A DNA stretch of 64,000 nt, taken from positions 21,320,676 to 21,384,675 of the forward strand of contig CM049311.1 of assembly GCA_026874595.1 (NCBI GenBank), in the 5' to 3' direction. Both the position numbers and the translations under genes were made by a program. Positions 3,703-63,299 of the stretch are shown one piece after another. Numbering within the stretch: position 1 is the first letter of the stretch; each line of letters starts with the position of its first letter. The notes under the pieces were generated by a model that worked only from the letters and a program-made list of their open reading frames with translations, was not told the origin of the DNA and did no database searches. Origin of the DNA: Sipunculus nudus. Lineage: Eukaryota; Annelida; Sipuncula; Golfingiida; Sipunculidae.

Positions 3703-3912
3703 GTATTATTGATGGACTATGGTTTCCGGGATACCGTGCCTGTAACAGACTTGCGGACGTTAGATCCAAAGTTCCAGGTCAAGCCGTGCTTTGCTTTACG
3801 TTGCTACCTCGCTGACATCCAGCCAGCAGGAGACACATCTAAGTGGTCCAGCACCGCCTGTGAATTCTTGGATGAAGAAGTCCACGGGAAAGTGTTGAAT
3901 GTCGTACAGAAG
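3703..3912 (+). CDS. Tudor exon 1 visible: core of extended Tudor domain A
   Basis: The 210 nt exon is phase 0-0 and encodes 70 residues. The acceptor is TTCATTACAG and the donor is AAG/GTGAGC. It starts VLLMDYGF, the strand with the Asp-Tyr-Gly turn of the Tudor barrel, then DLRTLDPKF, then the CYLADIQP stretch that begins the second SN-like half, and ends with FLDEEVHGKVLNVVQK. The ATG at 3676 lies in the intron and is not a start. The preceding half of this Tudor domain is not in the 3.7 kb to the left, so it must lie upstream of the window. Confidence 0.85.
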
Positions 3913-6900: not shown

Positions 6901-9900
6901 CATGATAATATTTCACCGGGTTTGATATACAGTAAAACCTGACCTAACGACCATCTTTGTTAAACGACCACCTCAAAACAACAACCTTTTTACGGGTCCC
7001 AATTCTTTTTATACAATCTCACCTAGAAGCCTACCTCACGTATGGGTTCCGATGGTGGTCATAATATAGAGGTTTTACTGTATACATGTATAGCATATTT
7101 GTCATGCTAAATGTAGCTTGTTTTCCTCTCTTAGGGTAACGTTGGTGACATGAAGATAGTCCCTGTAGACCTGTTACGAGAAGAGAAAATTCCCGGCGAG
7201 GCACTGACAGCAGACCGCATCGAGCACAAGAGTATCAGCCGCATGTTGGTCGATAAAGGTTTAGCCTTACCTGTACGCAGGTGTGTAACACAACGGGTGA
7301 TATCTTTTCTAAACCAGCTAATCACTTGCCTTACTTGTAAAATTTATGTAATTTCTGACTTGTTGTATCCGCCAAAACAGAGTTTTGCGGATACTATGTT
7401 TTCAGCTGCACGCCGCCGCCGCCGCCGCCGCGTAGGTTTCCGGAGAACTCCTCTGTAACCACTGGGCGGAATTTTACGAAACCCGGGATTATGTTTGGGT
7501 CACATGTGAACTGCTGCGCCCCGATTTTGTTTTGACCTCTGACCTTTCCTCTGCGCTCTGCGTCCGTTTGTGCGTCTGTTTCCACACATAAACCCACATA
7601 TCTCGGGAACCGTTTGACGGATCAGGAAAATTTTTTCGCACAAATGTAGCCCTTGGAGAGCTTTATAACATACACAAAAAATGGTGGCGCCACCTGCAAC
7701 CATGTTTGCACAGTATCCATCTGTTCGTCTGCCTTGGGTTAAAATCACTCATATCTCTGCAGTGACTTGACTAATTCACCTGAAATTTGGCATGCGTATA
7801 CATCCTGGATGGCTTTTCTGATTTTGTGACAGGTGGCGCCACCTACATTCACGTTTACGCTGCAGACATCCAAGCTCATATCTCGGGAACCGTTTGACCG
7901 ATCAGGAAAATTTTTTTGCACAAATGTAGCCCTTAGAGAGCTTTATAACATACACAAAAAATGGTGGCGCCACCTGCAACCATGTTTGCACAGTGTCCAT
8001 CTGTTCATCTGCCTTGGGTTAAAATCACTCATATCTCTGCAGTGACTTGACTAATTCACCTGAAATTTGGCATGCGTATACATCCTGGATAGCTTTTCTG
8101 ATTTTGTGACAGGTGGCGCCACCTACATTCACGTTTACGCTGCAGACATCCAAGCTCATATCTCGGGAACCGTTTGACCGATCAGGAAAATTTTTTCGCA
8201 CAAATGTAGCCCTTGGAGAGCTTTATAACATACACAAAAAATGGCGGAGCCACCTGCAACCATGTTTGCACAGTGTCCATTTGTTTGTCTGCCTTGGGTT
8301 AAAATCACTCATATCTCTGCAGTGACTTGACTAATTCACCTGAAATTTGGCATGCGTTTACATTCTGGATAGCTTTTCTGATTTTATGACAGGTGGCGCC
8401 ACCTACATTCACATTTACGCTGCAGACATCCAAGCTCATATCTCCGGAACGGTTTGACCGATCAGGAAAATTTTTTTGCACAAATGTAGCCCTTGGAGAG
8501 CTTTATAACATACGCAAAACTTGTGGCGCCACCTGCAGCCATTTTTGCACAGCTCCTGTCTGTTTGTCTGCCATGGGATAAAATCACTCATATCTCGGCA
8601 GTGGTTTGACATATCTGGCTAAAAGTTTGCAGGTTTATACATCCCCGACAGCTTTCTTGATTTTATGACAGGTGGAGCCACCTGCATTCTAGTTTATGCA
8701 GCAGACATCCAAGCTCATATCTTGCTAACCGTTTGACCGATTCCGCAAAAGTTTTGCATGTGTATAGTTCTCACATAGCTTCTTATCATACGCAAAACTG
8801 GTGCCGTCACCTGCAACCATTTTTGCTCAGCGTCCATCTGATTGTCTGCCAGGGGCTAAAATCACTCATATACATGTAGTGGTTTGACTTATCTGCCTTA
8901 AATTTTGCATATGTATACAACTGGGATGGCTTTCTGGATTTTGTGGTAGGGGGGCAACCTTCATACACAATTTGGCTGCAGACATCCATGCTAATATGCA
9001 ACACTCTATTTCCCTTGCCACTTTATCCATGCCTCACTTCACCCGTTCCACTCTGATTTAGGTGGATACACGTAGTCGCTTGTCGACTACCCGTATTCTA
9101 GTTCCAAGTATGAATTTAAGGTTATTCCTGCTTTTTGTGAAATGTTCAATAGATTAGCTTTATTTAACATGTGACAGATATTGGAATACAGGGCTTGACA
9201 ATAACAGTTAACCAATTGCCTGGGGCAAGTGATAGTTCAACAGAATAGTGGAAGGGCAACTAGAAGTTGCCTCCTACTTGCCTGACTGGGCAAGTGGGTC
9301 AAACGTAAACCTTTCCCCATGTAAAGGCTTGGAAAAGGATCTTTGTGTTCTTGAATACAATCAATAATATTTGTAGGGCAAGTAAAAATTCATGAAGGGC
9401 AAGTGAAACAAATGTGACCTGAGCTGGACAAGAATTATTTTTGCTGGATATATAGATATAAAATATTGTTTCACTTTCATCAGCAGTAGTATGCAGCATG
9501 TGCAAAATCTGAGGCAGAATGCAAATAATAAATACTGTATTTCTGTGAACTGAAACCCAGCCACTATATAAGGCAGGCTGTTATTTAAAGACAGTTTTTA
9601 ATATATGATGAAGTATCATTTTTAAAAGTTGATATATCTAAATAACAGGAGGCCAAAGTCCAGTGACGGGACACCTTCATCCCCTGAGGAACCGGTACCA
9701 CCAGTGACGCTAGCAGCTGGACGCACGAAAGTACATCTTCCAAAACTTGTTGGGGTCAATGACAATCCAACAAAAAAATCATCGTGCCTTATAAAAAAGC
9801 CTCCTGATACAAACAATAAAGAGGTAGGTGTTGTCCCTCCAGATGGCACCAGTGTTGACCCACCCACAGTCACGAAGGATACTCAGCCGCAACAGGAGAC

Positions 9901-12900
9901 ATCCCTTAATACCAAGGCACTGATAGAAGACCAAGTGATGTGCTTCCCACCTCCAAATGTTCCAGACTCAATGTTATTAAAGGTGGTTCCGACATACGTT
10001 GACTACAATTGCGTTATCTATGTTCAGGAGATCAAAGACCGTGAGTTGTCAGGCTGACCAAAACAGCTGCTTGTTACCATTGCAGTTAAATATATGGTAT
10101 TTTTAGCAAAATAAGTCCATGATAGGTGCCTGGACTTTTGTAATATACAGAGTAAACTCATTTAGTTGCTACTCATCCACTTGCCATACAAATTCACCAG
10201 TTGCTAGGTAATTTTGAAGTCCCAGTGTTCCATTTACTTCATTTTGCAACTCATTGTTTACCATGTTTAAAATCCTTAAAATGATTTAATTTACTTTCAG
10301 TTCCTTGAAAGGGCTTGAATTTTGCTAAAATTGAAAATTTTCTTGGAAAGAGCTCCAATTTCACTCTGTAATGCAATAGTTTTGATATGTGTAGGTAATA
10401 CATATCACCCATATTTAATTCTGTAATAGATTTCAATGAATTGTTATTTGGCAACAGGTGCATTAAACATTCCAGCATTATTTTGCCTTTTTTGTCCCCC
10501 ACTTCCTGGAATGGGGGTACATTGATTTGGGTTTGTCTGTCTGTCCTTCTGTCTGACTGTCCGTCAGGTTTTTGTTTCTGTGCAATAATTTTCCTTTATA
10601 TTTAACAGATTTTATTCAAATTTGGGTCAGTGATTGCTCTCATGCTTACCTTGGAAATTGGTTTTGCACCAACAGATGTCCCAGCGGTGAACATAAATTC
10701 CTTGGATTTGCTTGTTATGGCTTGATTTGATTTATATATACTGGTATCAGATATTTCCCTCAAAATGATCAACTGTTTTCCTGACCCTCTGTCAATCATT
10801 CTTTTGGCTCAGATGCTGGTAAGAGGACAAGGTTATTTGGTCAATCTGTCCCAATTATTACGAAGACTGTAAGGAACCCATATCACTTTGAACATTGTAA
10901 GAGCAGAAAAAGCAGCGTAAATCAGAAAACACCTTTTGTTTCTGAAATCAAGATCACACTAAACTGTTGGAAAATGAAGATACAACAGGGTATCACTTAT
11001 GAGTAGCTTCCAACTTGCTTACATTTAAGAAATCTGTGAATTGTTTGATGTGTATTCAAGGCCTTAAAAGTGCTTGAATTTAACTAACATTGAAAATTTC
11101 CTTAAAAGGACCTTGAATTTGAATGTTAATGGCTGGGCAGACCAAGCGAAACAAGGCATGCATTAACCTGTTAATAACAGTTTCAGACCAAGAAAAGGAA
11201 AGCATGTGTACACAGTTGCTATACCCCAATACCGTGGTTGTCTTTATATTCGCGAGGCTGAAATTTGGTGATTTTTTCATTTAAGACATTTTGCAATGGT
11301 TAAATTTTTGTGTTTGCAACAGAAACTATAAAATATAATTGCAGTAGTATTTGTATTGATTTTTTAGTTAAAATGAATCCTACAATATCTTGCTCATTTC
11401 TGGTTCAGTCAGTAGCTTATGACTTGTATCACATTCGATATAGCCTCAATGAGTACGGTATGCTTTTCAATAATTAATGCTTGGATGTATGGGCCAGTTA
11501 CAATATCATGCGCAGATTAAGATGCTGATTTGGTTGTTTCCAGAGGTCATCTTATTTGTTCAGACATCTTATTCCTGAGGGTTTCATATTCATGATTATT
11601 TCCTATTCATGAATATCGCAAAATAAAAACCCTTGTGAATAAACAGGCAACCACAGTATATGCGTTATTCTTCATAAGTTAGTTTGTAATTGAGTCTCGT
11701 CTGGAATGCTTTAGATTCAGTTAGTTTCTCTTTATTATGTAAATAGTATGCACCAACTAAGCATGTTGATTAAAATCATGAATAGAATAAACTTTGATAG
11801 ATCAAAGAGGTTGGGAGTATGGTTAAACAGGCTGTTCAAAAGAAAACGTTGAAAATACATTTAAATTTTTGAAAATTTTGGAAAGGAAAACCAAACATAT
11901 GTGGGAACCCTGTGTGAACATTAATATTTAGTATATTGCAGCTGAAGTCATGGCTAAGATATTAGTATGGACACCAAAAATAAGAAATATGAAATGGCAC
12001 TACCAGCAAAACTGAAAAAGTATCCTTTTAATTCTGTTTAGAAATTAAATCATGCTTTTTGTTGCAAAGTTCTGAAAGCCTGCTTATAGAAGCAAAACCT
12101 AAAGGGGCAGTCCATCAAAAGTTGTATTAAAATCAACAACATTATTTTCAGCCTTATATATATATATCTAACATAGAAGTTGTAATAAAGGATTATATAA
12201 CAGCATGCAATTATACTAACATTAAATTGCCTTTAGTTTTAGCAGCTAACGTCTGTGCATGTTTGAATATGATGTCTTCTGTTCTGTTGGTTTTGTGGTT
12301 TTAATTTTTTTCTCAACTGAAGTACATAAGTTTTAAGTACCAGTCCCAACACCACAGCCATGAACAGAGACACTTTTTTTTTGCCAGAGCAGATATTACA
12401 ACAGTAAACCTAATTAACATTAAGTCATCATTAAAATATGCTGAATTCTTAATTAATAAAGGATCTAGCCTCAAAACTTGTTGTTTTAACATGGTCTCTT
12501 ATCAAGTCTTTTTGACAAAAATGCCACAAAAATGTAATGTCAGATATTAAGTGATATCTGTTCTAATATAATGTGTGTGTGTGAAAAATTCATAAATACA
12601 ATAGACAAAAATAAAAATACAGTTGACAAAATAACAAAATGGACAATTATTGTGGGCAAAACCAAATATATTATGGACAAAGTAGGCCAAAAGTTTAATA
12701 AATGGAGAAGAAATGCTCTGGACAAATGTAAGAAAAACTGAAGAAAGAATGTCAAATCATCATGGACTGAAAGTCAAAATTCTGTGGGCAATAAATCAAA
12801 ATATCATGGATGAAAAATTAAATACGGCTGTCAAAAGTGCAAATACCATGTAAAGAAAGGCCAAAGGATAAAGACAGAAAAATCATAATGCTATTGACAA

Positions 12901-15900
12901 AATAGTAACAATACTGAACACAGAAGTTCACTATATCATGGACAGAAAAATCATCATGTGGTTTAAAACAGTTGGTATACCTTTAAAAAATGTCAAAATA
13001 CTATGGATAGAAAATCAGAATATTGTGAGACAAAGAATATTCTATAAGCAAAAATTAATCACAGTTGGTGATTTTTTTTGTTACATCACTAATATTGGGC
13101 CATAAAATAAAAATTAGTCCAGGTAGTAATGATATTTGGATATGTTTTCATCCAATATTTTATTAATTTGGAAAATCAAGTTAAATAAATCTAGGTATTA
13201 ACAATTTTGAGGTCTGTTTCAGCACAGGACAAACATTTGATTTTTATGTTGTTCTAGAGCAGCATTCGGAGGGACGATTTGGATTTCTGCTGAAAGAAAC
13301 AACATTGGAGATAACAATACAGAACCAGTATCTGGATAAATTTGGTTTACATCGCTGCCTTATCCCAAGGGACGGAAATTGCCTATTCAGGACTGTAGCT
13401 CAGGCTCTGCTTGGCGACATGAATAAACATGAAGAAGTGCGACAAAAGGCTGTGGAGACGCTTGGTGATAATTGGTCACATTTTGAACCAATGATCGTTG
13501 AGAAAAGCAAAGATGACTACCTCAAGGATCTATCCCGTCTTGGTACTTATGGCGGAGAAATTGAGATCCACATCTTGTGCTGGGCATATCAGATGTGTGC
13601 GGAGGTTTATTTCGGTGGACTTATGCATCCGGTTAAAATAAGGGAGTACGGAAACTGTCAGCATCAGAAAGTCAGGATGATTTACGTTTCAGATGGTTTC
13701 CATGACAATGGTCACTATGATCTTGTTTTGAAGCAATCTGCACCAAAAGCTGCAAAGGAAGCTTACAAAGCATGGAGAGGAGAGTGGATTGAATCGTTCA
13801 AAAGATCAGCCGGGCAACAGGATGAAAGTGTTTATGGTAATGATATTTTACCTTCCTTAGTGAAGATCTTTTTTTTACCCCCCATTGTGAAGATTTTCAT
13901 TTGTCAGAAAACTTTTTTTTATTTATGAATGCCTATATAGCAAGTGTTAAATTATCAGTTAGATGTTCAAATTATGTGGAATAATAATTAAACCACCATC
14001 ATATAATATGTATGTCAGCTATAAGTCTAAGTTCTATTTAAATAGCTAAAGAAAATTGCACAATTAAGTGTCATATTGAGACAGTACAGTTTACACAGCT
14101 CCAACTTTTTGTTAAAAAAAAAGATTAAAGTGATATATATGTATTTTCAAGTAAGCTAACTTACTGAATATCCCACAGCATTTCCATTTGAATATTTTAT
14201 CATCATGTTTCCTTCTCTATTTTGTTATTTTCTTCTTTTCAATAGAATACCTGTCTTGATGTTAACTTAAGAAAATGTACTAATGGTTAACGATTTTGGT
14301 TTAATGCATGGTTGCCTGACAAAATGTTGTACTGTGTAGAAATAAGCAATCTTTTTTCATTCAGCATGTGACGTTATCACCATGAATGATGATGCTACTA
14401 TCATAGCTGGTCAGCTAACTGAATGTAGAAATTTGTTATAACAATAGTGCATGTTCAAAATGTAAGGTATTGCAATTTTCATACAAGAAATCAGTTTGAA
14501 ATTTCATTATTTATTGTTCACATTTTACTAACAACTTATAATGAATAGCGTGTGGAAGGAGGATATGAATTTGCCGATGAAAAAGTCATGAAATGTTATA
14601 CCTAAGTGAAATCATTTCACCAATTTGAATCACAGGCGAGCTGTGCTACCTAGAATGAAGGCTATCCTAATACCAGTGAATGGGTCTAGCTCTGAATGGG
14701 ATAAACAAATTGCTTTTTATAGCTCAGTGATAACAATCTTAAAACAATGCTGATCCAGGTTTTGTTAAAATTTTAATGGATTGGAGTTTCGGCGTTTCTC
14801 TTAACCTCAAACCAATTTAATGATTATCAGTGGTTCTGTTTTCATTGATAAAGAAGCATTGTATGAAATTTCATTGATTTCAGTCCTTAATATAGTGAAG
14901 TGTTCTTGTAAAATCATGAAAAAGCTCCCTTTCAGGTTTTCATCAATAAGCACTTTATAGACTTCCAATATATCTTTCACTGTTGTAATGTTTAAAAACT
15001 TCTTCCATTTTGCTGCAGATAATAGCACCAAATTTTACAGGAAAATTGATCTTGTGACTTGACCACAGGTGACACTACCAGTGTTGACCTAATCTCTGTG
15101 ACCCAGAAAGATTGTCTTTATGCAACTTTGAGACAGGTCATATGTACAGTAGAACCTCTGAATTATGGCCACTGACAGAACCAGACATTTTGCCTGCAAT
15201 AGGGAGGTACCCTCAGAAAGGGAGGTTATAGATTTCGGGACTTACTTTCAAGGGAATGCCAATAGTGGCTGTAAATAATGGAGGGTCCTTAGTACAGAGG
15301 TGCCAGTAAAGAGAGGTTCCACTGTATATAAGTAATGTTTGGTTTCATATGGTTGATTATTTCTTAAAGTAAGGGGAATATAATCTGTAATTAATTACCA
15401 TATTCACATTACAGCCTTTTGTCATTATTATATTCCAGTTATGCAAATATCCATCAAATCTGTTAACCAGTCTTTTGTAATATGTTTCTGTGACAACAGA
15501 AGACAGTGTGTTAGAGCAGCTTCACCAGTTATTGTTGACGCACTATGAGAACACGCAGCCAGAGGAAGTGGAATGGCGGCCTGGGCAAGCCTGTGTGGGT
15601 CAGTTCAGTGACAGCTCCTGGTACAGAGGCAGGGTCACAGAGGTCAACCCAGAAAAGGGGGTCAAGGTCAGTACAGATTGTAACAAATTTCTTGTATATC
15701 TCAAATATACTTTTGAAAATGTACTCTCTGCTGGAACTACTTAAACTTAAAAGAGAGAGCTTTTTTGAGTCTCTCAGTAAGACAACCATCAGTCGTACAA
15801 AATTTTCATGATTTAATATGATCTTACCATCTGAACTAATGTTGAATGTTTTGGCATTGTATAACTTGTATTATAATCTTCATCAGAGACAATTGTTTCT

Positions 15901-18900
15901 TCAAATTAACCAGGACCACCTCACTGTGACAACTACTTTTGTATTTCCCCCTCTGATCTTAGGAAGATCTGAAGATCTTGACCACCCCAAAAAACACCTC
16001 CATTTTTACTGGTTTAAATGTTATTGTCTCACCAGTATTTACATTATATTTATGTGTATTGTATAGAAGAGAAATTTTGTTACCTTATTTTCTTTTTTGT
16101 TCTCATCTAAAGGTGTTCTACATAGACTTTGGGAACAGTGACTATGTGGACCCATTCCATCTGAGAAAACCAACAATACTAGGTGAAGTGCCACAACAGT
16201 GCTATGAGTGTGAGCTGGCAGGCATCAAACCGGTAATTATAGATTAAAAGTGTAGATTATCTGTAGTAATTATAGTTTATCTCTTGTAATTAAAAGTTAT
16301 CTGTATAACTATAGCTTATATATGCAGTATTTACATGTTACCACTATTTATTAAAGGCTTTCTCTAGTAATTACAGGTTATATTTAGTACTTAGGTTAAT
16401 CTGTTGTAATTTCAGGTTATCTGTAATAATCTGTTGTAATTTCAGGTTATCTGTAATAATCTGTTGTAATTTCAGGTTATCTGTAATAATCTGTTGTAAT
16501 TTCAGGTTATCTGTAATAATCTGTTGTAATTTCAGGTTATCTGTAATAATCTGTTGTAATTTCAGGTTATCTGTAATAATCTGTTGTAATTTCAGGTTAT
16601 CTGTAATAATCTGTTGTAATTTCAGGTTATCTGTAATAATCTGTTGCAGAAATTCATGCTGAATCTATATCTTCCATGAGTTAATAAATTCTTATTGATT
16701 GGCTTTGTATATTCCTTACTATTAATTCAAACTTTTATAAAAATAAAAAAAAAATGGCAGCTTGAACAGATATTGGAATGCCAAGGTCAGTCTTGCTTCT
16801 CTATCATAAACATATCTTCTGAGTGGCTTACTTCATAACTGACATATTCCTTATGACACAGCCTGGCCATATTAGTTTCGGGGTCATCGGTTGGAACATA
16901 CAGATGTAGGTCTCTTTAGAAATCTGTATAAAACAATGTGCCCTGTGTTGTATGCATCAGATAAGGATCACATTAACTGTTTTCAGAAAACACATGACGG
17001 CAAGTGGCAGATTTGGGTGCTGGATGAAATCCATCGCCTGATTGTTGGAAATACCTGTCTTTTAGGACTAAAGGTGAACTGTCAAAGGCTCATACACATT
17101 ATTCATAGTAGTTCTAACAGGTATTGAACCAGCTGACAAATTAAGGAGTAGCACTTGGTTTTACTTGGTTTAGAGTCAAGCAGTTGATACCAAACCATGG
17201 TGACATTCAATAAAGAAACTTTTCAAATTGAAAATTATAATAAGGGAATTTTACTTCTTTTTCTAGTATATGCCACAAGTATTTAAGAAGTTACCATCAT
17301 TACAATTCAGATGGTTAGGCATGTAAAGTTGAGCTGTAGCACTTCATTGTGCAAACATTTTATTTATAGTGGTTGGAAAGAAAATATAAAGGTATTTTTA
17401 TGACTGAATGAATTTAAATATAATCAAATGACAAAGACAGATATATCATATTTTGACAAATTGAACATATATTTTAAGGCAAATGAGGTCAGTTTTATAA
17501 AAGTTGGCAAACCAAATCGGTCACTGAAAAAAATCAGCTTATTTAGATATGCAACAATCTGGAAGCATAATGAACATATGATATCAGATGTCATGTTTTC
17601 ATCAATACAGAAACCTGCAGTTTACAGAGAACACCTCCAAGTGTCTCTGCTGTTGCCAGATGAGAGAGACTTGGCTGAGTTGTTGTGTGAGACAGGCTTG
17701 GCCATGCCTGCGGATCAAGATCTCAGCCCAGATATCGACAGAACAGTGTCTCCTCTACCTGTACCAGGATTACCGCAGCAAGTCCTGGTTACAGGCAGTG
17801 TGGTGCCCCCTGGTGTCGAAGAACCTGTACCAACAGGAGTGTCGTTTACAAGAGAGGTAGAACAATACTTTAAAAAAATGATTAAACTTTTTATTTTACA
17901 TGGATGGTATAATTTGTTATAACTTAACGAGGCACTCTCTGTGGCTCAGATGCAGGCATCTGGGAATCTGTAGAGGTTTGGGAAACCTGAAGACCCAGGG
18001 AAAAGCAACAACCTTGGACGGGCCGCTACAACCCACTCTCATAGCTGTGATGGGAACCAAACCTGGGTCACCAGTGGAGAGAATGGTGCAGATTACCCCT
18101 AAACTGTCCAGCAAAAATTTCAATACTGTAATTTTGTTTCTAAAAGTAAGAATCTGCATATAGTTTAAGTTAATAATTATATTTAGTGTCAGAAAAGATT
18201 TTCTTGTTTCATTGTAAATTCAGATAATATTTTATTGTCCCCTGCTTCCACGGAACAGGGGACATTGATTTGTGTTTGTCTGTCTGTCTGTCTGTCTGTC
18301 AGGTTTTCATTTCTGTGTGATAACTTTCCTAAATATTATCTTATTTCATTCAAATTTGGGTCAGTGATTTCTCTCATGCATACCTTGGTTGGGATTGGTT
18401 TTGGAGTGTCTGCCTGAAAATTTATTCTCACTAGCTCCAAAACAAAATTATCCAATTTTAATACTATTTCACAACCAAAATTATGACATAGGGAGACATC
18501 TTCAGGGCACCATGAAAACTAAAACAGAGCCAGATGACATGTGGAGACATCTTCAAGCAAAAATAAAAACTAAAACACATTAATAGGACAAGCATGAAGG
18601 ACAACTAAAGGCAAAAGTGAAGGACATAAATACCACAACTTTGCTTGTTCAAATACGAGAGTTTGCAAATGCTTAATCAACCGAAACTGTAGAGACTGTT
18701 TAAAATTACTTATTTTAAAGTCAAGTCTAGTGTAAAGCATGCAAACCATGGTAGGAATTATGTTGCAAATTTAAAATGAAAAATGTTCACATATTTACGT
18801 GTTGCAGTGGAAGAGCCCATACAGGCCACTGACACTTCCAGAACCCGGTGTTGAGACTCTAGTCACTGTTACCCAGGTGGACAGCACAAGCATGGTATGT

Positions 18901-21900
18901 TGACATTGACAAACACTCAAGTTTCCAGTATATTTTCATATAATACACATGACTGTGGAAAATTAAATTAAATATTATTAAATATGGTTGCTATCACGGC
19001 CTATCAGAAGATATCAGTTCTTAAACCAACTTCAGTTATACTTCTTTTGCAATTTAAATTTAAATAAGAAATACCAACAAAGATTATATGAGACTCTAAG
19101 AAATTTATAATGTATTTCTTTATTAGACAATCTTGGATCTTGACCTAATAACACATGACAATAATGCATTTTGATGGGGAATCCCCCCTGGAATGGCTAT
19201 CACGGCAGGCCACGTGTGTTCTGGCATTCAGTACGATATTTTGACACCTGTAGTTTTATTTAATCTTCCTTTTATGTTGATATAACACTTAAATGTTACA
19301 TATTTCGAAGATCCTTTCAAAATTATGACAATTCTTCATATACATTGTTTATTATCTCATATTTTATCATTACTTGTCATTTCTATGCAGAGCCTGAGAA
19401 ATAATTTATAATATTTTACGCTATTTTAACGGTAAAAATATAAAATGAAATGCTGCCCGCCCACATCATTTTACAAAAAAAGGTGCCTGAGAAACATTAT
19501 TATTTTTTTTTGTTTGGCTTGTGTAGAAGAACTTTGTTTTAACCATGGAGGTACGAATTGATCACTTGTGTCCTGTTCACATTGTTAAGATGTTAGGTGC
19601 ACATTTAATTCATACAAAATAATGAGTATACTCTTTATTAGATTACTTTTTACCGAGATTATGTCAATTGAACCCTCATAAAACACAGTAAAAGTAAAAA
19701 TCTTGAAAACATAACCTCGTGATAATGAAACACTCAAAAGTATGATCATAATACACACACTCACTGCTTATTTATTTATGTACAGTGGAACCATGAATTA
19801 CTGACACTGATGGCACCCGCCATTTTGCCCACAATAGAGAGGTGCCCGTAGTAGGGAGGTTATAAATTTCAGTACCTTCTTTCAAGGGACTGCCTGTAAG
19901 TAGGAGGTGCCCTTAGTACAGAGGTGTCCCTAAGAAGAGGCTCCACTGTATATATAATACACATATGTGTATGTTTGGCCAGGTTTACATACAGGTGGTG
20001 AAGCAGGATCATCCGGTTGGGGACTACCTGGTGAAGATGTGTGTGCAGCTGGACTCGCTTCTTGATATGATGGAGCACATCTCACAAGATGCTGGTTCTT
20101 ACCTACCACTCACCGACCCAAAGCCAGGTACAAACATCAACTGGATATATAACATATGGTATTGATGGTTTGGATTGGTGCTGCGGTCATGTTTTCCTGA
20201 GGGCAGCTGTAATGGCTCAACTCAGTCAGACTGAGAACTTATCTGCTGCCTGTAGGCTAGTTTGAAGGCCCAATTCAAAGTTTCACTATCATTTTATCAG
20301 TATGTCAATTTCACACCAGAGCTTGCACATTTGACTCTTCTGCACTCCATTCAGCTGATATAGGCACATGCCAAGCAGATTAAACCTATTTTAACCAATT
20401 GTGAATGCTTTCTGCCATGCTGACACATATGATGCTGGAACATGATAAAATTTATTTATTATCGACAATTTGTTAACTATCAGATTCAGTTGCCTTAGGC
20501 CAGGCAATACTTTAGAAGATGCCTCTGCAGTATTGCTTCCAGTGAAATGTTCAGCATTCTTCAGAATTGCATGCAAAGAGAAAATGTACAATTTTCAAAA
20601 CCATCTTTACATTTATGATTGACCATAGGTAGGTCTCAGATGAAATTTTTCCTTGCATGACAAAGTTGGATAGATGAACCATGTTTTATTTCTTAAAGCC
20701 AGCTATTCACCTATCTTTTTCTATGGTATTTATGTGATTTCTGGTTCACTCTGAGGAACTCTATAAAATTCCTGTTAGAAAATGTTCCCATGACACCTCT
20801 GGGAGATGTATGAGGCTGTTTATTTACAAGCTGTTAGTAAACACATCAGTGTTGACAAACAAACAAAATCATGTACTCTAAGGTGGCTGGTTGCATGTAT
20901 GTGGAAGTAGAAATGTCACAAGTTTCAAAATACACTCTGCAAAACTCTGGTTCATCTGGCTTGTCACCAGATGTCCTTGTTGAATGTGTTTGGATTCTGT
21001 AATGGGCCCCCCTACATGTTATAAACATTTGGATATAAACAAAACAAACAACCAGTGTGCAGTTGGGTTGGTGTTTTCTTGCATATTCTTATAGACAGTA
21101 CAAGGGATTATCTTCTGTGAATAGACATCAGAATAGGCCCCTTTAAGTTGACAGAGAATGTTGTGTTTCCCTGCTTTCAGGTAAATACTGTTTCTAATAA
21201 AACACATACACTTTTTGCCAGGTGATGTTTGCTGTAGTCAGTATACATTGGATGACTGTTGGTACCGTGGTGAGGTGGTAGATGTCAGCAGTGATGCCAG
21301 TGGCCAGCGTATTGGAGTTTTGTATGTAGACTATGGAAACTCCGAGTACGTCCCGTTAGACAGGTATGTACCAAGCCTAACTGATCATTATATCCTATTT
21401 ACGTCACCTTCATAGACCAAACAAATCATTAGTTATTATATTTGACATTAAAATATGTACTGCTAGAAAGTAGTCTGAGACCACATATACACCTCCACCA
21501 GGATCGTTATCAAACTTTGGTGTGTGCAACACAGAAAAATATGTGCAAGGGTTACCAATTCTATGGTTGGGTCACGGTTTAGCTCTGCTGAATAGAACAA
21601 AGGCCACCCCTACAACCAGGGAATGGCCCTTGCCCACAGCAAGGCTAAATATTTGCTCCATCTCACAAATGTAAAAAAACCTTTAAATGTAAAACATATT
21701 ATGTTTGTCCAGAATTCCCCCAAAATCAGTGAATTGTTCCGCAGGCATTGCCACAACCCTGTGCATTACAGTGGGGGATGGGGGGGGGGGGGGGGGGGGG
21801 GGGGAGTTCCTGACCAAATATGCCCAATAAAAGATAGAAATTATGATAAAGGTAAGAAATTATTATAAATTTATGTTATCAAGATAAAGATCCTCTTACA

Positions 21901-22232: not shown

Positions 22233-25200
22233 TCCATTTTCAGACTTAGGGTTTTGCCAGAAGAGTTCAGGCACCTGCCGGCCCAGGCTGCTCAGTGTTG
22301 CATCATGGGATTGCAGCCAGCAAGCAGCGCTGTCGCTAGGGAAGCAGTGCTAGCCCTCAACATGGTGTTCAGTGAACCAGTCATCATGTGTGTCAGGGTA
22401 GGTTGGAATGCATTTTGCATGGGTCAAAGTTCAAAGGTCACCTGGATGAGGATATGCTTCTTCAAGCTATTATGAATTTTAAGATTTCAGGTGTTTGCGC
22501 AATTTATGTGATATGTATTACTTAACATCTTAGGAACTGCTGCATGCAGCTATCAGCATCAGATTTTACAGCCTTATATTATTATAGATGGATTTGATCT
22601 TTTTTGGCCCCTTGGCTTTATATGTCAGTGTGCCACCTTCCTTTGATATTAAGGTTTCTAATCCCAGTTTCTGTGTAAAAAAAAACAATATTCAGAAATT
22701 TTTCAGTAATCCTGATTGTGATCAGGGTCCAAATAGGGGTGAAAAATCAGCAACACAAACACAGTGAAAACGAAACCCTCCTTGACAGAGGAAATAACCT
22801 GAACGTTGTCTCTCCAGGAACCTGGTGATCCGACCATTGTGGAGCTGTACAAGCAGAATCCAGGAGCATCGGACCAGCCACCGATATACGCATACCAAAG
22901 ATTGATTGATGAAGGCCTGGTAGTCATCTGTTCCAATAGTCAAGAGTAAGTTCATCAAGTTTATACTTAGATGACTCTAAGGGTGCTTTTCCATGTATGT
23001 GTTTTGCGAGCTTTTGGTGCGTGGCTGCCGTGCGGCGAAAATCCAACCAGTTTAAAAGTCATATGCTATTTCCATGTATGCCATTGCCGCGCGGCAAACA
23101 CACTTGTCAGTTTTGGAAGCCAGCAGTGCAATGACGTCACATGTGGGGTTTCCCCGTACTCGTATGTTTAAGTCTGTTCAGATGTGACAGGAAGGCATGC
23201 AATTGCTGCGCGGCAAATGCTTACAAAATGCTCACATGGAAAAGGATTGGCCGTGCGTCAAACGCATGCGTTTGACGCGCGGCCGCCCACATGGAAAAGC
23301 ACCCTAAAGATGTTTTCACATTAATAGCTTGTTAAATACCATTTCCTCAATGCTGTATGGAGAACTATGAAGCCTGTGTAATATGACCACCCATGTGACA
23401 GGCCAAAAGTTAATTCTTTAGTCTTAATTCACAGGTTGTGTTATTAGACAGGTCAGATATATAACCATTATGAATGTTTTCAGTTTACTCAATGATGGTC
23501 TTAATAGACAGGTAGTCTTATTGTATAGGTAGTCTGTCAGAGAGGTTTGACTGTATACTGTGCTTCATTTTTGAGGGGTGACAATTTTGCAATATTCACA
23601 TTATCACTGTTCCGTGAGGGTTATATTTTCAGGTTGTAGGGCAAAGGCCCACCCTGACAAAAGCCCACCCTGACAAAGGCCCACCGGACAAGAGATCACT
23701 GGACAAAAACCCACCCCTAAAAGTGCAAGCCTGGACAAAAGCCCACCCTTGACTAAAATATAAATTTTAATGATTTTATCATGTTTTTCTAAAGTTTTTA
23801 GCTCAGCTGACAATAAGTCATCTGAGCTATAGTCATGGTCCATTGTCTGTCGTCCGTCCGTCTGTCTTGCCGTCCGTCTGGATGTCCGTCTGGATGTCTG
23901 TCCGTAAGACTGGCACGTTTCGACACCGTTGGACCTACGAATCTGAATTTCGGCATACAGTTAGATGTCCCCATAATCTCCTACCATGCCAAAAATTGGG
24001 TCAATAGGACTTCCTTCCTTTGAGATATTAAGGAAAAACCTCAATTTTTTATTAGAAATCTATTTTCACACTTCAGGACTGCCTAATATTAAAACCACTC
24101 ATCTGGTTTTCTTCATATTTACAATAAATATTCCTCTATATAGTTCCTATGTACATGCCAGATATTAAGTCAGTATTATATAATTTAAAAAAGTTATGGG
24201 CCCAAACATAATGGACTTTGTAAAAAAATCAGGAAGATATTTGGTCACTTAAGACCAAAAGTGTTAAAGGTAGGGACTTTTTTCCAGTAATACAACTTTA
24301 ATTAATCAAAATTTAATTGTATACCAAAAATTAGATCAAAATTTGTTAAATTTTTTTAAATATTGGCAAAAATATAAAATTGGTACTTTAAATTTTGGCC
24401 AACTTTGGCCATGGCACGTTTTTTTCCTGTAAGTACTGTGGATTTAATTTTCACACCATGTATACATAAGGATTTAATCTGTTAAAATCTGAAATTTGAA
24501 AATAAAAGCTGCAAAATTAGGCTAGTTATTGAATTTTTTTGGAGGCTCTTGTTGTATTCCCTTACATTGTCAAGCAGTCCACTTTGATGACTGTAGGTCA
24601 TTCAGTGCACATCTCTATGCTCCCCAGGCTGTTGACATAATTTTAGATGTCTCCAAAATCTCCTACCATACTGAAAATTGGGTCATTAGGACTTTGTTCC
24701 TTCGAGATATTAAGGAAAAAAAACTCTGTTTTCCATAAAAAAAAGCCATTGTTACACTTCAAGGCTGCCTAATATCAAAACCACTGATCTGTTTTTGATC
24801 GTATTTAGTATTCACATTCTTTTATACATTTTCTATGAACATACCAAAAATTAGGTCAGTATTGGGTATTATTTTGAAGTTATGGGCCAAACATAATGAA
24901 ATTTTAAAAAAAAATCAGGAAATATATTTACTCACCTAACATGAGAATTGCTGAACCTAGAGACTTTTTTTCAGGAATATAACTTTATTTAATCAAGATT
25001 CAATTGTTTACCCAAAATTAGATCTGAATTTTGCAAATTTTTCAAATTATTGGCATAAATAGAAAATTAATACCTTCAATTTTGTCACTTTGGCACTGTT
25101 GATTTAATTTTCCCAGCATATATGCATAAGGATTTAATCTTTCAAAATCTGAACTTTCAAAAGAAATTGATTGGAATGAATAGCTTTTATTCATGTTTTC

Positions 25201-29983: not shown

Positions 29984-32900
29984 CATATACATAATATATA
30001 ATATATAATGATATATTATATATATTTCATGTAAATTAAAAAATGTCAATAGGCTAATTAGTTATAATTTATATGTTAACCAAAATTATATAATTTATAT
30101 GTTAATTATAATTATACTTGTGATCTTTATGTTCAACAAAGGGAAATGTAACACCCAATCTTTTGAGCAAATAATCAGGCTAATTAGCTAATTGGTTTCT
30201 GATTGGGGTCTCTACAGCTAAAGTGATGTAATCAAAACAAACACAAACATCAAAGAGAATGCCTAGGGTTCTCCTAAACTATTAACAGAGACATATATAT
30301 TATAAATTATATATTAAAAAATGATATAATCATAAAAGAATGATAATTTTACTAAGAATATTATATTAAAAATCCAACATATATTATAACATATAATAAA
30401 ACAAAATATATATATATATATATATAAATTATAATTAATATAGAATATTTATATAATATAATGTATACGTATTTCCTGTAAAAACAATAACATCAGTGGG
30501 CTTATTAGGTATAATATATATTGGGATGTTAATCTTCATTTTATAATGTGTATGTTAATATATGTTAATCATAATATTTATACTCTTCCACACAGTACCA
30601 CAGGGTTCTCAGAATACAGATGTATTTAAAAAAACTTAAGAAAAACACAATAAAATCATTTAATTTTACATTTTATTCAAGGGTGGGCTTTTGTCCAGGT
30701 CTGCACTTTTAGGGGTGGGTTTTTGTCCAGTGGGCTCTTGTCCGGTGGGCCTTTGTCAGGGTGGGCTTTTGTCAGGGTGGGCTTTTGTCTGTCACCCTAT
30801 TTTCATGATCTGCCCAAAGTGTAAACTACACGGTGTCCATCCAATAAAACTGATATGAATAATTCATATTAAATAATCCGTAAGCAATTCAGAAAAATTG
30901 GACAACAACTCCAGGCAACATCCAATATGTGGAAATTCTTGTTCATTATTGGCAGATTATTTGAAACATTTGATATCATTTATTATAGCAGTCTTTGATT
31001 CAAGAGTAACATACATGTCTATTATTATTCATATATCAGTATTTTGCTTTACGACTTCCTTTCGACGAAGCGATTTTCCCTTTTGCGAATACGAAACTCT
31101 CCTGTACAAAAACCCAACCACAGAATTCAGTTTTAAATACCTACACTTCATGTTCACACTAAACCAGTAAAAGCTTATTCAACACCATACGTCCTACAGG
31201 GGTAGGACATAGCCTAGTTATTAAAGCGTTGGACTTTAGAGCTGATGGTCCCTGGTTCCAATCCTGACGGTGCCTCAATGGCATAATGGTGGAATCTCAT
31301 TAAACCTCAGAGATTTGCTCTAATGTCTTAATGACAGGTTATGACTTCTGGATTTTCCTGACCCTGTGCATATAAAACCATGAAATCCAGAAGGCTAAAC
31401 AATAACATATCATTCTTATCATATGGATACCTTCAACCTCATTCATTAGACAGTGACACCAACAGGCCATGGACCTATCCTTAAAAAACTAAAATAAAAA
31501 ACATGTTTTATTACGTAAACATAATTGTGAGCTGTTCCTGTATTAATGAGAATTTTCTCTGTTAAAGTTTATACGCCAGAGTAAGCCAACCGAAAATTTT
31601 CCCTTATTGGGCCTATTATCGCCCATCCTGCCTCGTTCCCGTGTATCTAGGTCACACTTCCGTTTCCTGTAATCACATTTTTCTTCTGGCGTCAGCCATG
31701 ATGGACATGTGATCACGCTCTGCGCGATTCGTCCACTGTTTTGGTTTGTACAGTCGGGTTTGCCAACTGAATTGTAAGTAGTGATTCTTTTCCCTTCCCG
31801 CCATGGAGCCCTTCACTGTTCTTGTGGTTAATTAATCCCCCCTGGGGATTCTCACCCCACTTGTTTCACTTGCCGTTCACACAATGACATATGCCTGGGC
31901 CCTGCTGATCCCTGCTTCTTTTGTCAGCCGTGGTTGTCTGACAATTGGGCCATGTACCATGCCTGGTCCCCTTCCCCGGTTGTAGGGGTTCCCCGTACAC
32001 GGTGCCCTTATCTGGTCCCGTTGTTCCTCCCGGGGGGGGGGGGGGGGGGATCCTACCATGGGTGGACGCAACACGTCCGTGTTACGTTCCCCATTCAGAT
32101 TAACCTGTACAGTTACTTCCCGGTAGTTCAACTGCTAAATCTCTTTCCTATTAATTCATCACATTCGGCCCCAGTCCGCTTATACCCTTTTGAGTTAACT
32201 CTCACGTTTTGCTCTTCCGTGGTGTCGGATCTAGACGATTTGTCTAGACCCGCGTCCGTTCGCCCGCTTACCTCTCCTACCCGGTTCTCGGCCTTCGCCT
32301 GCTGCCCTCCCCGCCGGCCCCCGGCCGGCTTCCTTCTTTGTTTCCGGGGCCGGCTGTTGCTGTCATGCTGGCTTCCTTGGGACTTCATAGCGCTGAGGTA
32401 GGTCATTACGCTTTTTTCAGCCGCCTTCGCTTCCTGTGGTTCCTGCTGCTCTGGCGGGCTGCTCGGTGATCCTTGGCCAGCCGGCCACCGCTTTGTTTCA
32501 GACTACGGCTGCTGTTCCGCGTGCGGGCCCGGTTCCTGTGACTTTTCGGCCCTGTACTGCTGCTGGCCTACCGCGCCCGGCCCATCACGCCCTGGCATAA
32601 GATCAGTGGTCGGTGATCGCCCTGCTACGCCAGGCTTGGCGTATGCGCATCTCTCCCGGCCGATCCCGCCCTGGCATAAGATCAGTGGTCGTTGATCACG
32701 CTGCTACGCCTGGCTTGACGTCCGCGCCTCTCTCAAGGCTGATCCCGCCCTGGCATACGATCAGTGGTCAGCGATCGCGCTGCAATGCCAGGCTTGGTGT
32801 CCGCGCCCTCTGCGCTGATGGACCTCGCCTCAGACGGCTGATCCCGCCCTGGCATACGATCAGTGGTCGGAGATCGTGCTGCAACGCCCGGCTTGGCGTA

Positions 32901-35900
32901 AGCACACCTCTGCGCTGCTGGACCTCGTTGCTAACTCCCCGAAGGAACCGCAACCTGATGGTCTGAAGTTGCGTCGTTTACGGCCTCGGACTTCCATGGC
33001 GTCGGCGGCCGGTTCTTATTTGTATCCGGCCGCCCTCCTTTGCCTTCCTCCACACCCGCCAGTGTGTGTGACATTCCCCGTTCATTCGGTTGATATTTAC
33101 GGGAAACTCCACGCCGCCGTCTCGGGGTCGATCTCGACTGCTCCCGGGGCCCCAGTACCGCCTGGGTCTAATATGGCTTGGTCCCCCGGCACCCTCTGGA
33201 CCTCCCGAGGGTACCGGGAGTCAGGTTTGATCGTTTGATCCCTTTCCGGATCTTCCGGCAGTTCCTTAGGCGCCATACGTCTAGAGTCCGGGCTGGAACA
33301 ACAGTTCGCGGTTGGGCATTCCTATTTTCTTCATCCGCCCCGAAAACCGACCGTCTACTGCCGGTTTTCAAGGGGCTCGGCCGTCCAGCGGCGGGGCTGG
33401 TGGATGATTTACTCTAACCTCCTCGCCGTCTCACTGGATCTGCCCACACTGTATGATATTTGTCAAGCGTCCGCCCATGCCTGTGCTGCACACCGACAGG
33501 TTAATTGGCGTCTTGTGGTACTTGTGTTTTACTCCGCCTCTCGGCCTGTATCCATTCATTACGTACCTTGAAACCCGAACTCCGGCTGATTTGGCTGCGC
33601 TTTACGCTCATCTTTTACGGGGTATCTTCTGTTTGGCGGCCCCCTTAGGCCCTCTTAGACCGTGCCTTGGATCGTTCTGACCGGCCCGCCCGCTCCCGTT
33701 CGGCACCTCCTCCTCCGCGCCCGTCTTCCCACATTCTGCAGACGCGGCCTTCCTGTACAGCCCTCTCATCGGCTTGTCGGGGCCCCGCTCCGTCGTCCCG
33801 TCCCTCAGGCCGTACCGGTCGTGCACAGCCTTTTTCACGGTTGTTCCTCACGCCGAGGTTTGACCCGTAACTGACTCTTTCGGTCCGGTTGGCGCTCGTC
33901 TCCCCGACCTCTTTTCCTGCTTGGGCCTCACGTCACCTCATTAGTTCTCAGCCCCCTCTAGTTCGGATTCCGTTTACGTTTTTGCACGTTCCTCCAGTCA
34001 CCCTGCACCCGTTCTACCCTCAGCCTTACACTGAACTGTTCAAACGTCTCGCGTTAGAGGCGGCCATGCAGTCTGCTCGACCCGAGGGTGATTCTCGAGG
34101 TTCCCCCTTCCCTCGGGGATTTTCCTCTCTTCTTTTGTTGGTTCCGCAACCGCACAGGCAAGGGCGCCTATTATGGCTCTCAAGCGTCTCTGTTTGGTCA
34201 AATTAGACCTTCTGGATGCTTCGTGTCACGTTCCGTTCCATCCGTCATCCCTACCGTTTTTTGATTCGCCTACCAGAACCGCGTGTATGTATTCCCTGGC
34301 CTTCCGTTCGGGTTCACTGTGGGCCCTGGCTTTTTACGCTGCAGGGCATAGCGCCGTCTTCCACACGGTAGCTCGTTACCTCCGCTCCTGGGCCTATCTG
34401 TGCTCCCTTACCTAGACGATTGGTTTATCCATGCGGCCGATCACTCTTTCTTACTGGCGCTCCGCTCCCCGGTTCTCGTTTACTCAGGAACCTGGGCTTT
34501 CTTGTCTATAAAGGGACGACTCTCGATTTTGCGTCAGGTACTGCGTCTCTACCGAGTGCCTTTGCTCTCCAGGTCCGGACGCGGATTTGTCCCTTTCTTG
34601 CGTCTTGCCGTATCGATTCTCGGGCCGCTGCTTCTCTTCATAGCCCTCACAACTGGGCCGCCGATTCGTTCCGTTCGGTTGGTTTTATCTCCGTCCGGTT
34701 CGGTCTCTCCTGCGCGCTCGCGGCCTTCTCCCTCTCCATTCGGTTCGTCCTGCGGTCCTCCCATATCCCCGTCCTTGGAGGACCCTTGCCCCTGCCTGAA
34801 CTTTTCGGTTCTCCTTCAGGACGTTCCTTTCTCTCAGGGATCGATTGTCCGGTATTTCCCGACACATCTCTCCTCGGTTGGGGTGCCCATGTGGCCGATC
34901 TCCGCGCCTCGGGTATCTGGTCCAATATCCTGGACCTGCGTGACTTCCGTCGCGCGATCTCCGGCTGGTCCCCCCACTTGCTCGGCCGTCTCATTCATGT
35001 CCAGACCGACCACGCCACGGTCATGGCGTATTTCCACCGGCAGGGCGGTCCTCGGTCTCCCTCACTGATGCAGGAGACCTACCTTTTTGTTCCATCTATA
35101 CCTCTCTGGGCCTCGCTTCGTGCGTCGCCTCTTCCGGGCGTGTCGACCTTCTTGCCCCCACCCTTTCCAGTCGCCCTGCGTCTCCTCCTCCGCCGGTGCT
35201 CCTTCCCCTCCCGGTTCGGTGTCTTTTTGCTCGCCTGGGGCGTCCGGAATTCGATCTGTGCGACTTTCCGTCCCCCTCTGTTCTCGAGCCTACCGCAACG
35301 CGTCTACGTCACCCTCCCGACCGTCTCCCTGACTCCCCGCCGTCCGTGTGGTCTCACCTGTTTCTCCTTGTGTTTCCGGTGCCTCACCGCGCGGACCAGA
35401 CGGCTCTACTTCCCATCGTTCCCACGAGCCCGTCGCCCTTTTCGGTCGTGCCCTCTGTGCGCCTGCTGCTCTCCTTGCCTTGGCTCCCCGTCGCAGTGCT
35501 TCGGCCCGCCTCTCTGCCTCCCGGTGGCGTCTCTTCCCCGGTTGGGCGTCTGCCCGCGGCATCTCTCCTTTAGATCTGTCGCTCACGGCGGGTTTTAGAT
35601 TTTTCGTGTTTACTGCAGGTTAAGCATTTATCCCTTCCGTCTCTGCGTGGCTATCGTGCCGCCCTGCTGTCCGTACTCAGTCCGCTCGGTCACGATCGTG
35701 TCCTTCCTCATCTGTTAGGGCCGGATTTTCTCAGGGGGTCCATGCCCGCGCATCTCTTCCTCGCTATATCGCGCCTTCCTGGCGCCTGGACGTTGCCTTC
35801 ATCCCCTCCGCGCCCCTTTTCTGAACCTCTGCGTTCGGCCCATCTTCTGCTTGTCTCGGAAATCGGTTTTCCTCGTGGCCGACTCGCATTTCCTCTCCTT

Positions 35901-38900
35901 GCAGCAGACGTGGCGTCGGCCACCTTCCCTTTCCCTACGGACTTTATCAGCAGTCCCGTCGTTCGATGATCCTCCGTTCACCTGGCACGTTCCGGCCCTC
36001 CCTCACTGCCGGTATCGTTACGGGGCTCACGTGTGCCCTGTTCGTGCTTTCCGTTACTCTCTTCCAGCTCCTCATTCTCCATGAAGGGGGAGGGGGGGCG
36101 CATGATGTTGTTTATTTCAACGAAAGTCACTCCATCAAACGAAGAAATTAACCCTATCTCCATTAATGCCTGGCTAAAAGCTACCTTTGTCTCAGCATAT
36201 GAATCTGCTTCTCAGTCATCATTGGAGCAGCTTCACGTCAAGGCTCCTGACGTCAGGGCCATTTCTCCGTCTTTGGACCCTTTATTGGGGATTTCCCCGA
36301 ACTCACTGGTCAAGAAAGGCTCTTGGATGTCGCCTTCTACCTTCCCCGCTTCTATCTGTCGGATGTCATGTTCCAAGCTTCGGTCCCTTATTCCTTGGGC
36401 CCTGTGCTTTCGGTGGGTGTGGTCCTCCAGTTCTCCCGTCCATCCTCGTCTCCTCCGTCTGTTCTGGCGACGATGTCTTCGTCTGCTTCCTTGCTGCTGT
36501 GCTGTTCTCCTTTTTCCGTCGTTCCTGGTAGGTATCCCCTCCCCAAGGTTTATCTGTTATATTCTCATTAATACAGAAACAGCTCACAATTATGTTTACG
36601 TAATAAAACCCCCCCATTCCCTCCCTGTGAATGGTGGTTTTGTTAGTAAACTGTTGTGAGCTTTTCTGTATTACAAAAATGCTCCCTCCCAGTCCACTTC
36701 CTTCCGCCTTCGAAAAATGTGATTACAGGAAACGGAAGTGTGACCTAGATACAGGGGAACGAGGCGGGGTGGGCGATAATAGGCCCAATAAGGGAAAATT
36801 TTCGGTTGCCTTACTCTGGCGTATAATTTTTAACAGAGAAAATTCTCATTAATACAGAAAAGCTCACAACAGTTTACTAACAAAACCACCATTCACAGGG
36901 AGGGAATGGGGGGGTTTAATACACTTTACGTACACACTGAAGATGTTTCATATATGGGATCAGTTACTGTATCTTCTCAAAGGTGTAGAGAATACTTATG
37001 AATCAAGAAAATAAAAACATATGCTTATCCAAGAAAGCATAGCCATACATAACTAGCTATTTTAAACGTCCAAAGTAAGTGACAGAGCTTTTCTGTCCAG
37101 TGGGCTCAAGATGAATTGTGATTTCTCAAATCAACTCCTAGTTGTCTGAAAATAGGAACTCAGGCCCAGGTATATTACAATTTAATCTCAGCTGAAATAA
37201 TCTCAGCTGTAAAAATCCGCTTACTTATGTGGTTTATAGAAGTAAAGACTTTTAACTTCATGGATATGGGAGAAATATATTTTACAGACACTATAAAGAT
37301 AAAGGATAGAGTTGCCCATTTTTATGCCCCCGCCACAAAGTGGCCGGGGCATATAGTTTTACCCATGTCCGTCATTCCGTCCTTCCGTCATTCTGAAATC
37401 AAACAGTTGTACGGACTTTTTTTCGCAATGCCTGCAGATATTGGCCTTATTTTTGGTGTGTGGGCAGATATAGACCAGTTACAGATCGAGTTCGCGTTTC
37501 GTCCCGGTTGACCTACTTTTGACTTTTTTATGGCTCCTAAACTTAGAAAATTTCATGAAAAATAGAAATATTCATGACAGATACACATGTACGGACTTTT
37601 TTTCGCAATGCCTGCAGATATTGGCCTGATTTTTGGTGTGTGAGCAGATATAGACCAGTTACAGATCGACTTCGCGTTTCGTCCCGGTTGACCTACTTTT
37701 GACGGTTTTATGGCTCCTAAACTTAGAAAATTTCATGAAAAATAGAAATTTTCATGACAAATACACATGTACGGACTTTTTTTTGCAATGCCTGCAGATA
37801 TTGGCCTAATTTTTGGTGTGTGGGCAGATAATGATGAGTTACAGATAGAGTTCGCGTTTCGTCCTGGTTGACCTACTTTTGACCGTTTTACGGCTCCTAA
37901 ACTTAGAAAATTTCATGAAAAATATAAATTTTCATGACAAATACACATGTACGGACTTTTTTTCGCAATGCCTGCAGATATTGGCCTGACTTTTGGTGTG
38001 TGGGCAGATAATGACCAGTTACAGATCAAGTTCGCGTTTCGTCCCGGTTGACCTACTTTTGACCGTTTTACGGCTCCTAAACTTAGAAAATTTCATGAAA
38101 AATAGAAATTTTCATGACAAATACACATGTACAGCCGTTTTTAGCCCTCAGCTCATAGGCTGATGGGCTATTGTCGTCACCCAAGCTGTCCATCTGTCCA
38201 TCTGTCTGTCCGGTGTCTGTCCGTCCGTCTGTTCTGCGTCTGTTAACTTTTACCTTGTGAGCGGGATATCTCTAAAAGGATTCACCGTCGGAATTTTATT
38301 TCAGCAGTGAAGATGTTTATCGATAAAATCTCGATCAAGTTCGAAGATGGGTGACCTTGACCCATTTTTCTACATTTTAGAGCTGATTATAGAAAAACAC
38401 TCAGAAGTTTATATCTCAGGAACCATTGTGTGGATTTTCACAAAACTTACTATAATCATTGGGACTGATGGTCTGTATGTGCTGCACAATTTTGGTGTAG
38501 CCACCTGCAATTTCTGATTATTTAATGAAATTTTATCGGATTTTTTCAATTTTGGCCTTTTGTGCAGGATATCTCCAAAGGTATTCAACACAGGAACTTC
38601 ATTTCTTCAGTTCTATTGCATTATATTTACAAACTCTTGGTCAAGTTCAAAGATGGGTGATCTTGACCTACTTTTCAAGGTCACAGAGCTTTTTTATAGA
38701 AAGAAACTTAGGAGCTTATTTCTCAGGAAGCATTTGGTGGATTGTTATGAAACATGGTATATACCTCTCCAATTTAAATTTATAAATGATTATCAACTTT
38801 TGCTAATATTCTAGTTTTGCAATGCAATGCTTACAGATACTGGCCTGTGTTTGGTCTGTTGGCGCATAATGACCACTTACAGATCGAGTTCGCGTTTGGT

Positions 38901-63176: not shown

Positions 63177-63299
63177 CTACGTAAACCAAAAAGACAACTC
63201 AATTTTTAGTCTATCAACCAAACAAGGTAACTGGATTGGTTACAGATAGTGTTCAGAATCAGTTGAATTTTCATGACATCAGTAACAAGTGCACTGCAA

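Follow-up and report, generated by a model that had tools for sequence, protein, structure and literature searches.

The 64,000-nucleotide stretch of the Sipunculus nudus genome analyzed here (the window) opens in the middle of a forward-strand gene that starts over 50 kb before the window does. Exons of this gene, given below as forward-strand window positions unless assigned to a contig, encode extended Tudor domains (eTuds) and were scored with the Pfam TUDOR profile and with an eTud profile derived from 17 eTuds that other genes in the same genome encode on single exons. The third eTud (eTud3) contributes its later barrel strands at positions 3703 to 3912 (eTud profile positions 84 to 149, 42.2 bits; phase 0 at both ends) and its C-terminal SN-like part at 7135 to 7280, which forms an in-frame chain from phase 0 to phase 2 with a presumed acceptor. 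Next come a linker and the first two strands of eTud4 (exon 9649 to 10040, with the strands at 9971 to 10039), which join in frame from 7280 and are recognized by the joined profiles; the acceptor at 9649 falls under the pyrimidine threshold of the splice-site scan. A complete OTU domain follows on a single symmetric phase 1-1 exon (13258 to 13836), inserted in eTud4.

The remainder of eTud4 begins with its linker helix and first barrel strands at 15500 to 15666 (Pfam TUDOR, 29.1 bits; eTud profile positions 21 to 86, 35.3 bits; both computed on the open frame 15481 to 15744), where the claimed frame is not clearly favored by codon usage. It continues with the later barrel strands, containing VFYIDFGN, at 16113 to 16232 (Pfam TUDOR, 25.4 bits; phase 0 at both ends). 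An SN-like part (16987 to 17073) and a C-terminal SN-like part with linker (17611 to 17856) were assigned from the joined eTud profile match, which runs to position 181; exon 16987 to 17073 has no codon bias in its own frame (−0.05, with another frame at 0.20). The intron that follows the eTud4 barrel exon carries a tandem array of a 30-base unit at positions 16390 to 16640. The fifth domain (eTud5) comprises strands and linker helix at 19983 to 20127 (matched by the eTud profile from position 24 onward once the exons are joined, the first strands having no profile match), barrel strands at 21222 to 21363 (Pfam TUDOR, 48.8 bits on the open frame 21185 to 21415), and a later part with an uncertain 3′ end at 22244 to 22387 (eTud profile positions 101 to 149, 16.8 bits).

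Of the 61 Tudor matches in the genome (E ≤ 1), 8 fall within positions 21,294,805 to 21,342,051 on the + strand of the 88.9-Mb contig (C6) that holds the window. When exons are joined, they yield five eTuds in order, scoring 118.9, 106.7, 110.9, 85.9 (with the OTU removed), and 90.3 bits, the profile matches of eTud2 (positions 2 to 128 of 184) and eTud5 (24 to 132) being partial. Read as one joined chain, the exons of eTud3 through eTud5 contain no stop and are compatible in phase at their 12 joins; phases are likewise compatible over the exons of eTud1 and onward as far as the fourth of eTud2. Phase was among the criteria by which exon ends were picked from candidate sites, so this agreement indicates consistency and is no independent test.

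A RING exon (C6:21268074-21268198, + strand) matches zf-RING_5 at 29.1 bits (cut-off, 27.9) and zf-C3HC4 at 25.1 bits (cut-off, 21). A match to zf-RING_UBOX (32.3 bits; cut-off, 25.2) takes in residues ahead of the start of the RING exon. The first of the RING's Cys pairs could not be placed. The B-box that follows (C6:21277133-21277249, + strand) scores 49 bits, second among 123 matches when 150 of 469 candidates were scored. A candidate first B-box scores below its cut-off. The next exons resemble a coiled coil on visual inspection and have no Pfam match over the cut-off. Splice phases are compatible from the RING to the exons past the B-box. Exon placement is incomplete at the 3′ end of the gene, and also from the B-box region to eTud1 and in the C-terminal part of eTud2; because of these last two gaps, a single transcript from RING to eTud5 is one that we infer.

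The gene is RNF17/TDRD4/Qin-like because its RING, B-box, and five eTuds follow one another on a single strand, an assignment made by domain layout and not by alignment to a named RNF17 sequence. Proteins of the RNF17/TDRD4/Qin type have a B-box and coiled coil after the RING. The chain described as TDRD-like in the initial annotation, which was made from the window alone, is therefore upheld and narrowed to this type. The product is likely a RING-bearing five-eTud scaffold in which the OTU would lie between the two N-terminal strands of eTud4 and its linker helix. We think it probable that an RNF17/TDRD4/Qin-type gene gained one symmetric phase 1-1 OTU exon, which entered eTud4 after strand 2 and ahead of the linker helix.

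The protein encoded by the OTU exon matches PF02338 from position 2 to 128 of 128 (55.8 bits; cut-off, 23.3; E = 8.6e-15). Among solved chains, its nearest matches are the catalytic domains of OTUD1 (4bop; E = 2.5e-11), OTUD5 (1.1e-8), and OTUD3 (1.7e-7), and the OTUD1 match rises to 1.3e-26 with a six-row OTU profile; OTUD4 is not among the listed chains. We know of no nesting of the OTU domains of OTUD1, OTUD5, or OTUD3 in a Tudor domain. By alignment with OTUD1, the predicted triad consists of Asp39, Cys42, and His153 (P0001 numbering), in the motifs DGNC and GHYD, which we take to be the catalytic residues. The codons of Cys42 (13380 to 13382) and His153 (13713 to 13715) specify residues that are invariant in six alignment rows, and that of Asp39 (13371 to 13373) specifies one replaced by Asn in a single row (C12:23517125). 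The full profile match and the OTUD1 alignment agree with the complete OTU domain and Asp, Cys, and His triad of the initial annotation. AlphaFold2, run on the OTU exon alone with single-sequence input and no relatives, returned a mean pLDDT of 35.2 and a pTM of 0.26.

The OTU would be an active deubiquitinase. It might instead be spliced in as a noncatalytic binding module that reads ubiquitin or holds partners, a reading we consider rather unlikely. Loss of OTU activity has been reported in two Drosophila OTUD4-family proteins (PMC4654579); for Otu and CG3251, that report describes replacement of the catalytic Cys by Ser plus further events, whereas in the inserted OTU the Cys is present and Asp, Cys, and His all appear to be kept. 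Moreover, an in vitro deubiquitination assay of Otu is listed in the supplement of PMC12677786, so the inactivity of the Drosophila OTU is itself not settled by these sources.

The OTU exon is 579 nt long, is flanked by AG and GT (acceptor, TGTTCTAG/AGCA; donor, TATG/GTAATG), and is in phase 1 at both ends. Its 5′ neighbor ends at 10040 in phase 1, and its 3′ neighbor starts at 15500 with two completing bases, such that the frame is kept whether the exon is included or skipped and neither joined reading contains a stop. These splice sites and this length confirm that the exon is symmetric, phase 1-1, and a multiple of three, as first annotated. Because the exon is symmetric, its skipping would yield a plain eTud4. 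The donor conforms to the consensus at 6 of 9 positions; compared with it, 17 of the other 21 donors used are higher, 3 are equal, and 1 is lower, the lowest being that at 17856, which was hand-scored with the exon end set to 17856. So modest a donor would fit occasional skipping of the exon.

Codon usage in the OTU exon is best in the claimed frame of the six, and its score is equaled by 1 of 469 presumed noncoding stretches from window positions 38000 to 62000, each taken at the best of its six frames. The G+C content of the exon is 0.43, against 0.32 in each flanking intron. We infer that the exon is spliced into the Tudor transcript. The large introns on either side (3.2 kb on the 5′ side and 1.7 kb on the 3′ side) would also leave room for a separate OTU gene nested in an intron of the Tudor gene, but the open frame that holds the OTU (13185 to 13928) has no ATG ahead of the catalytic core, which argues against its being a stand-alone gene by itself. 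Both the phases and the codons of the exon fit the Tudor gene on both sides, and the upstream intron has five + strand frames of at least 60 residues, none with a Pfam match above the cut-off. A nested gene is, on these grounds, very improbable. Repeats in the two flanking introns are only short and diverged (minimum length, 25; longest, 82 nt at 73%).

Removal of the OTU restores a nearly full-length Tudor match across the two parts of eTud4. With the OTU kept, the Pfam TUDOR profile (PF00567) aligns from position 26 to 121 (61.8 bits) and the eTud profile from 29 to 181 (76.3 bits); with the OTU removed, the former aligns from 4 to 121 (73.4 bits) and the latter, in one run, from 8 to 181 of 184 (85.9 bits). 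Judged by this profile, the two strands, the helix, the barrel, and the SN-like C-terminal part would all be present in eTud4. The 32-residue strand segment together with the downstream part scores 90.6 bits against the 17-eTud profile, and the downstream part alone scores 81.2 bits. None of 2,000 shuffles of the strand segment reached 90.6 bits (best, 90.2), and none of 236 other linker or OTU segments did so (best, 84.5); since the best shuffle came within 0.4 bits, the shuffle test on its own is not overwhelming.

At E ≤ 0.001, the joined eTud4 has matches to 23 distinct sequences of solved eTuds as well, including SND1, Tudor, TDRKH, and TDRD1, and its match to SND1 with the OTU removed has an E value of 3.6e-11. 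In the SND1 alignment, the OTU site falls right after YVQEIKD, ahead of the next helix. This point coincides with a boundary described for T2/T3 Tudor domains, between two N-terminal strands and a helix-plus-barrel unit (PMC12147562). From these profiles and alignments, the strands at the end of exon 9649 to 10040 belong to the same extended Tudor domain as the sequence that begins at 15500, and this domain would fold around the OTU. The single interrupted domain and the Tudor-OTU-Tudor order proposed at the outset are thus sustained by the match obtained once the OTU is removed; the interruption stands, and the accompanying label, extended Tudor domain B, does not, as joined profile matches make this domain eTud4 of five.

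The origin of the OTU was sought in the same genome, where an OTU profile has 52 matches, just one of which is on contig C6, in this gene. A protein search with the OTU returned 9 other places in the genome at E ≤ 0.01, with 26 to 37% identity, and the top relatives are short open frames, located on C12 and, in one case, on C14. The DNA was inspected at 41 of the 52 matches, the C6 exon included and the other 11 left out, and no close donor was found among those 41, a survey that an intron-split donor could escape. The OTU seed profile matches 44 of 45 loci, the exception being a piece that is OTUD7-like by eye, and many of the other OTU loci sit in long repeat-type frames, as judged on frame length only. 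One open reading frame at C16:21873461-21874861 contains a stretch that resembles a LINE-type endonuclease (by eye) and, after it, an OTU-like stretch. Viral contigs gave no pattern match when probed with the OTU exon and 64 stretches that fit the pattern, none confirmed, when probed with the six-row OTU alignment; the same alignment fit 44 stretches in prokaryote genomes, again with none confirmed.

OTU and Tudor domains occur on one protein, as they do here, in Otu, OTUD4, and ALG13, which also have germline or RNA links (PMC12147562, PMC4654579), and the pairing cited for Otu/OTUD4-type proteins in the initial annotation agrees with both sources. As presented there, these proteins have a single T1 Tudor outside the OTU (after it in Otu and CG3251) and no multi-eTud chain, whereas here a T3-type eTud surrounds the OTU. 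The layout of an OTU followed by one separate T1 Tudor is therefore not the one encountered in this gene, where the OTU splits an eTud within a chain of five. A hunt for ALG13 through its glycosyltransferase domain gave 73 genome matches, mostly to other proteins judging by their spread.

This co-occurrence raises the question of whether an OTUD4/Otu-type unit replaced the core of eTud4, its Tudor part having arrived with the OTU. The OTU interrupts eTud4 at the boundary that has been proposed as the site of Tudor entry into an SN domain (PMC12147562), and the eTud4 core alone scores higher with eTuds of another gene (47.1 and 42.7 bits) and with eTud5 (41.1 bits) than with eTud3, which is fourth at 39.2 bits. 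By direct score, however, the best match of the whole eTud4 is eTud3 (54.5 bits; next, 54.0), and in a tree of 22 eTuds from this genome the two form a pair with support of 82/89, a tree that includes no T1 Tudor, leaves 11 of its 19 inner branches open, and flags eTud4 as a long branch of unsure place. In addition, eTud3 and eTud4 have a common intron pattern after the helix, in that both lack the helix-barrel intron present in eTud1, eTud2, and eTud5. Replacement by such a unit is highly unlikely; on balance, duplication of an eTud followed by insertion of the OTU would fit better than import of an OTUD4-type unit. The intron of eTud3 lies a few residues further on and is in phase 2 (by eye), so the position of the OTU intron is not common to eTud3. 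Elsewhere in the gene, a portion of one eTud2 exon (HYKLKKLLNQFLVLPPQ-like) is repeated a short way downstream, at L012:3451-4080, with three more eTud profile matches (E = 0.52 to 0.0019), as if the end of this exon had been tandemly duplicated.

That the OTU exon reflects an assembly error or a pseudogene is scarcely credible: some contigs of the assembly are apparently bacterial, but the exon is open and intact on an 88.9-Mb contig, and the best other match to it in the genome is 37% identical. Glyco_tran_28_C (MurG-like) frames of 222 to 385 residues occur on 11 small contigs (C61, C62, C72, C74, C77, C79, C80, C83, C89, C90, and C115), which suggests bacterial contaminants or symbionts in the assembly.

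The insertion of one OTU exon into an RNF17/TDRD4/Qin-type gene would add to a layout that is already known. In the table of a 2025 survey, the relevant entry reads "TDRD4, Qin, Multiple T3, ZnF-RING" (PMC12147562); these proteins share with the gene a RING and multiple T3 Tudor domains, and the table gives them no OTU, whereas here an OTU is nested in eTud4. In SND1, a Tudor is nested in an SN domain (PMC12147562), an arrangement of domain within domain like that seen here; SND1 has no OTU, and here a third module is nested. The result would be a nesting three deep, with an OTU in a Tudor-bearing SN-like domain, and the exon phases show a possible route to it without breaking the host domain. 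A20/TNFAIP3 also combines an OTU deubiquitinase with zinc fingers of the E3 type in one chain; it is an NF-κB regulator with no Tudor domains, and its layout is unlike that of the RING-eTud-OTU gene. Among the open-literature matches listed, none reports an eTud that has an OTU inside it or an OTU-bearing protein of the RNF17 type, and an unremarked entry may exist in the subscription papers and animal sequence databases outside that scope. Relative to the literature examined, the placement of an OTU inside an eTud appears to be new.

SND1 has residues that form a methyl-arginine cage. In the SND1 alignment, the cage positions are F, Y, Y, F, and N in eTud4, which makes methyl-arginine binding plausible. 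Binding of the eTuds to PIWI-type clients marked with methyl-arginine would place the scaffold in germ granules, and the OTU within eTud4 would be kept near the client-binding face. There, it would trim ubiquitin off the clients or off the scaffold itself, acting against the scaffold's own RING; to our knowledge, the substrate of the RNF17/Qin RING in the piRNA pathway is not settled. With a deubiquitinase built in next to a Tudor pocket, the job of the protein would seem to include the turnover of ubiquitin on its PIWI-type clients or on the scaffold itself, and ubiquitin-adding (RING) and ubiquitin-removing (OTU) modules would share a single chain. Skipping of the OTU exon could turn the eraser off by producing a plain eTud4, and the gene would offer a direct test, with one exon in or out.

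By analogy, the germ-granule link of the OTU-bearing protein would follow from the role of the RNF17/Qin family. RNF17 and Qin are described as piRNA pathway proteins that restrain PIWI ping-pong, with Qin in nuage (PMC9114089; PMC12497819), and the germ-granule tie of the family is also supported by PMC12147562. Turnover of PIWI proteins via ubiquitin is reported for mouse MIWI, with RNF8, and in Paramecium (PMC12497819). Tentatively, then, one polypeptide of the piRNA machinery may combine a RING ligase with an OTU eraser on a cassette exon, and splicing could possibly switch between forms of the scaffold. In the zebra mussel, the candidate sex-determining region is reported to contain a single uncharacterized Tudor-domain gene (PMC13015404).

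Two regions, L021:3947-7300 and window positions of about 31800 to 36600, have long overlapping frames that look retroelement-like by eye. In L021, the one frame tested matches RNase H weakly and below the cut-off (E = 0.0049), and the two tested frames of the window have no such match. At window positions 62963 to 63205 on the − strand lies an Armadillo-repeat exon (Arm, E = 1.4e-8) of a different gene, which is importin-alpha-like by eye.
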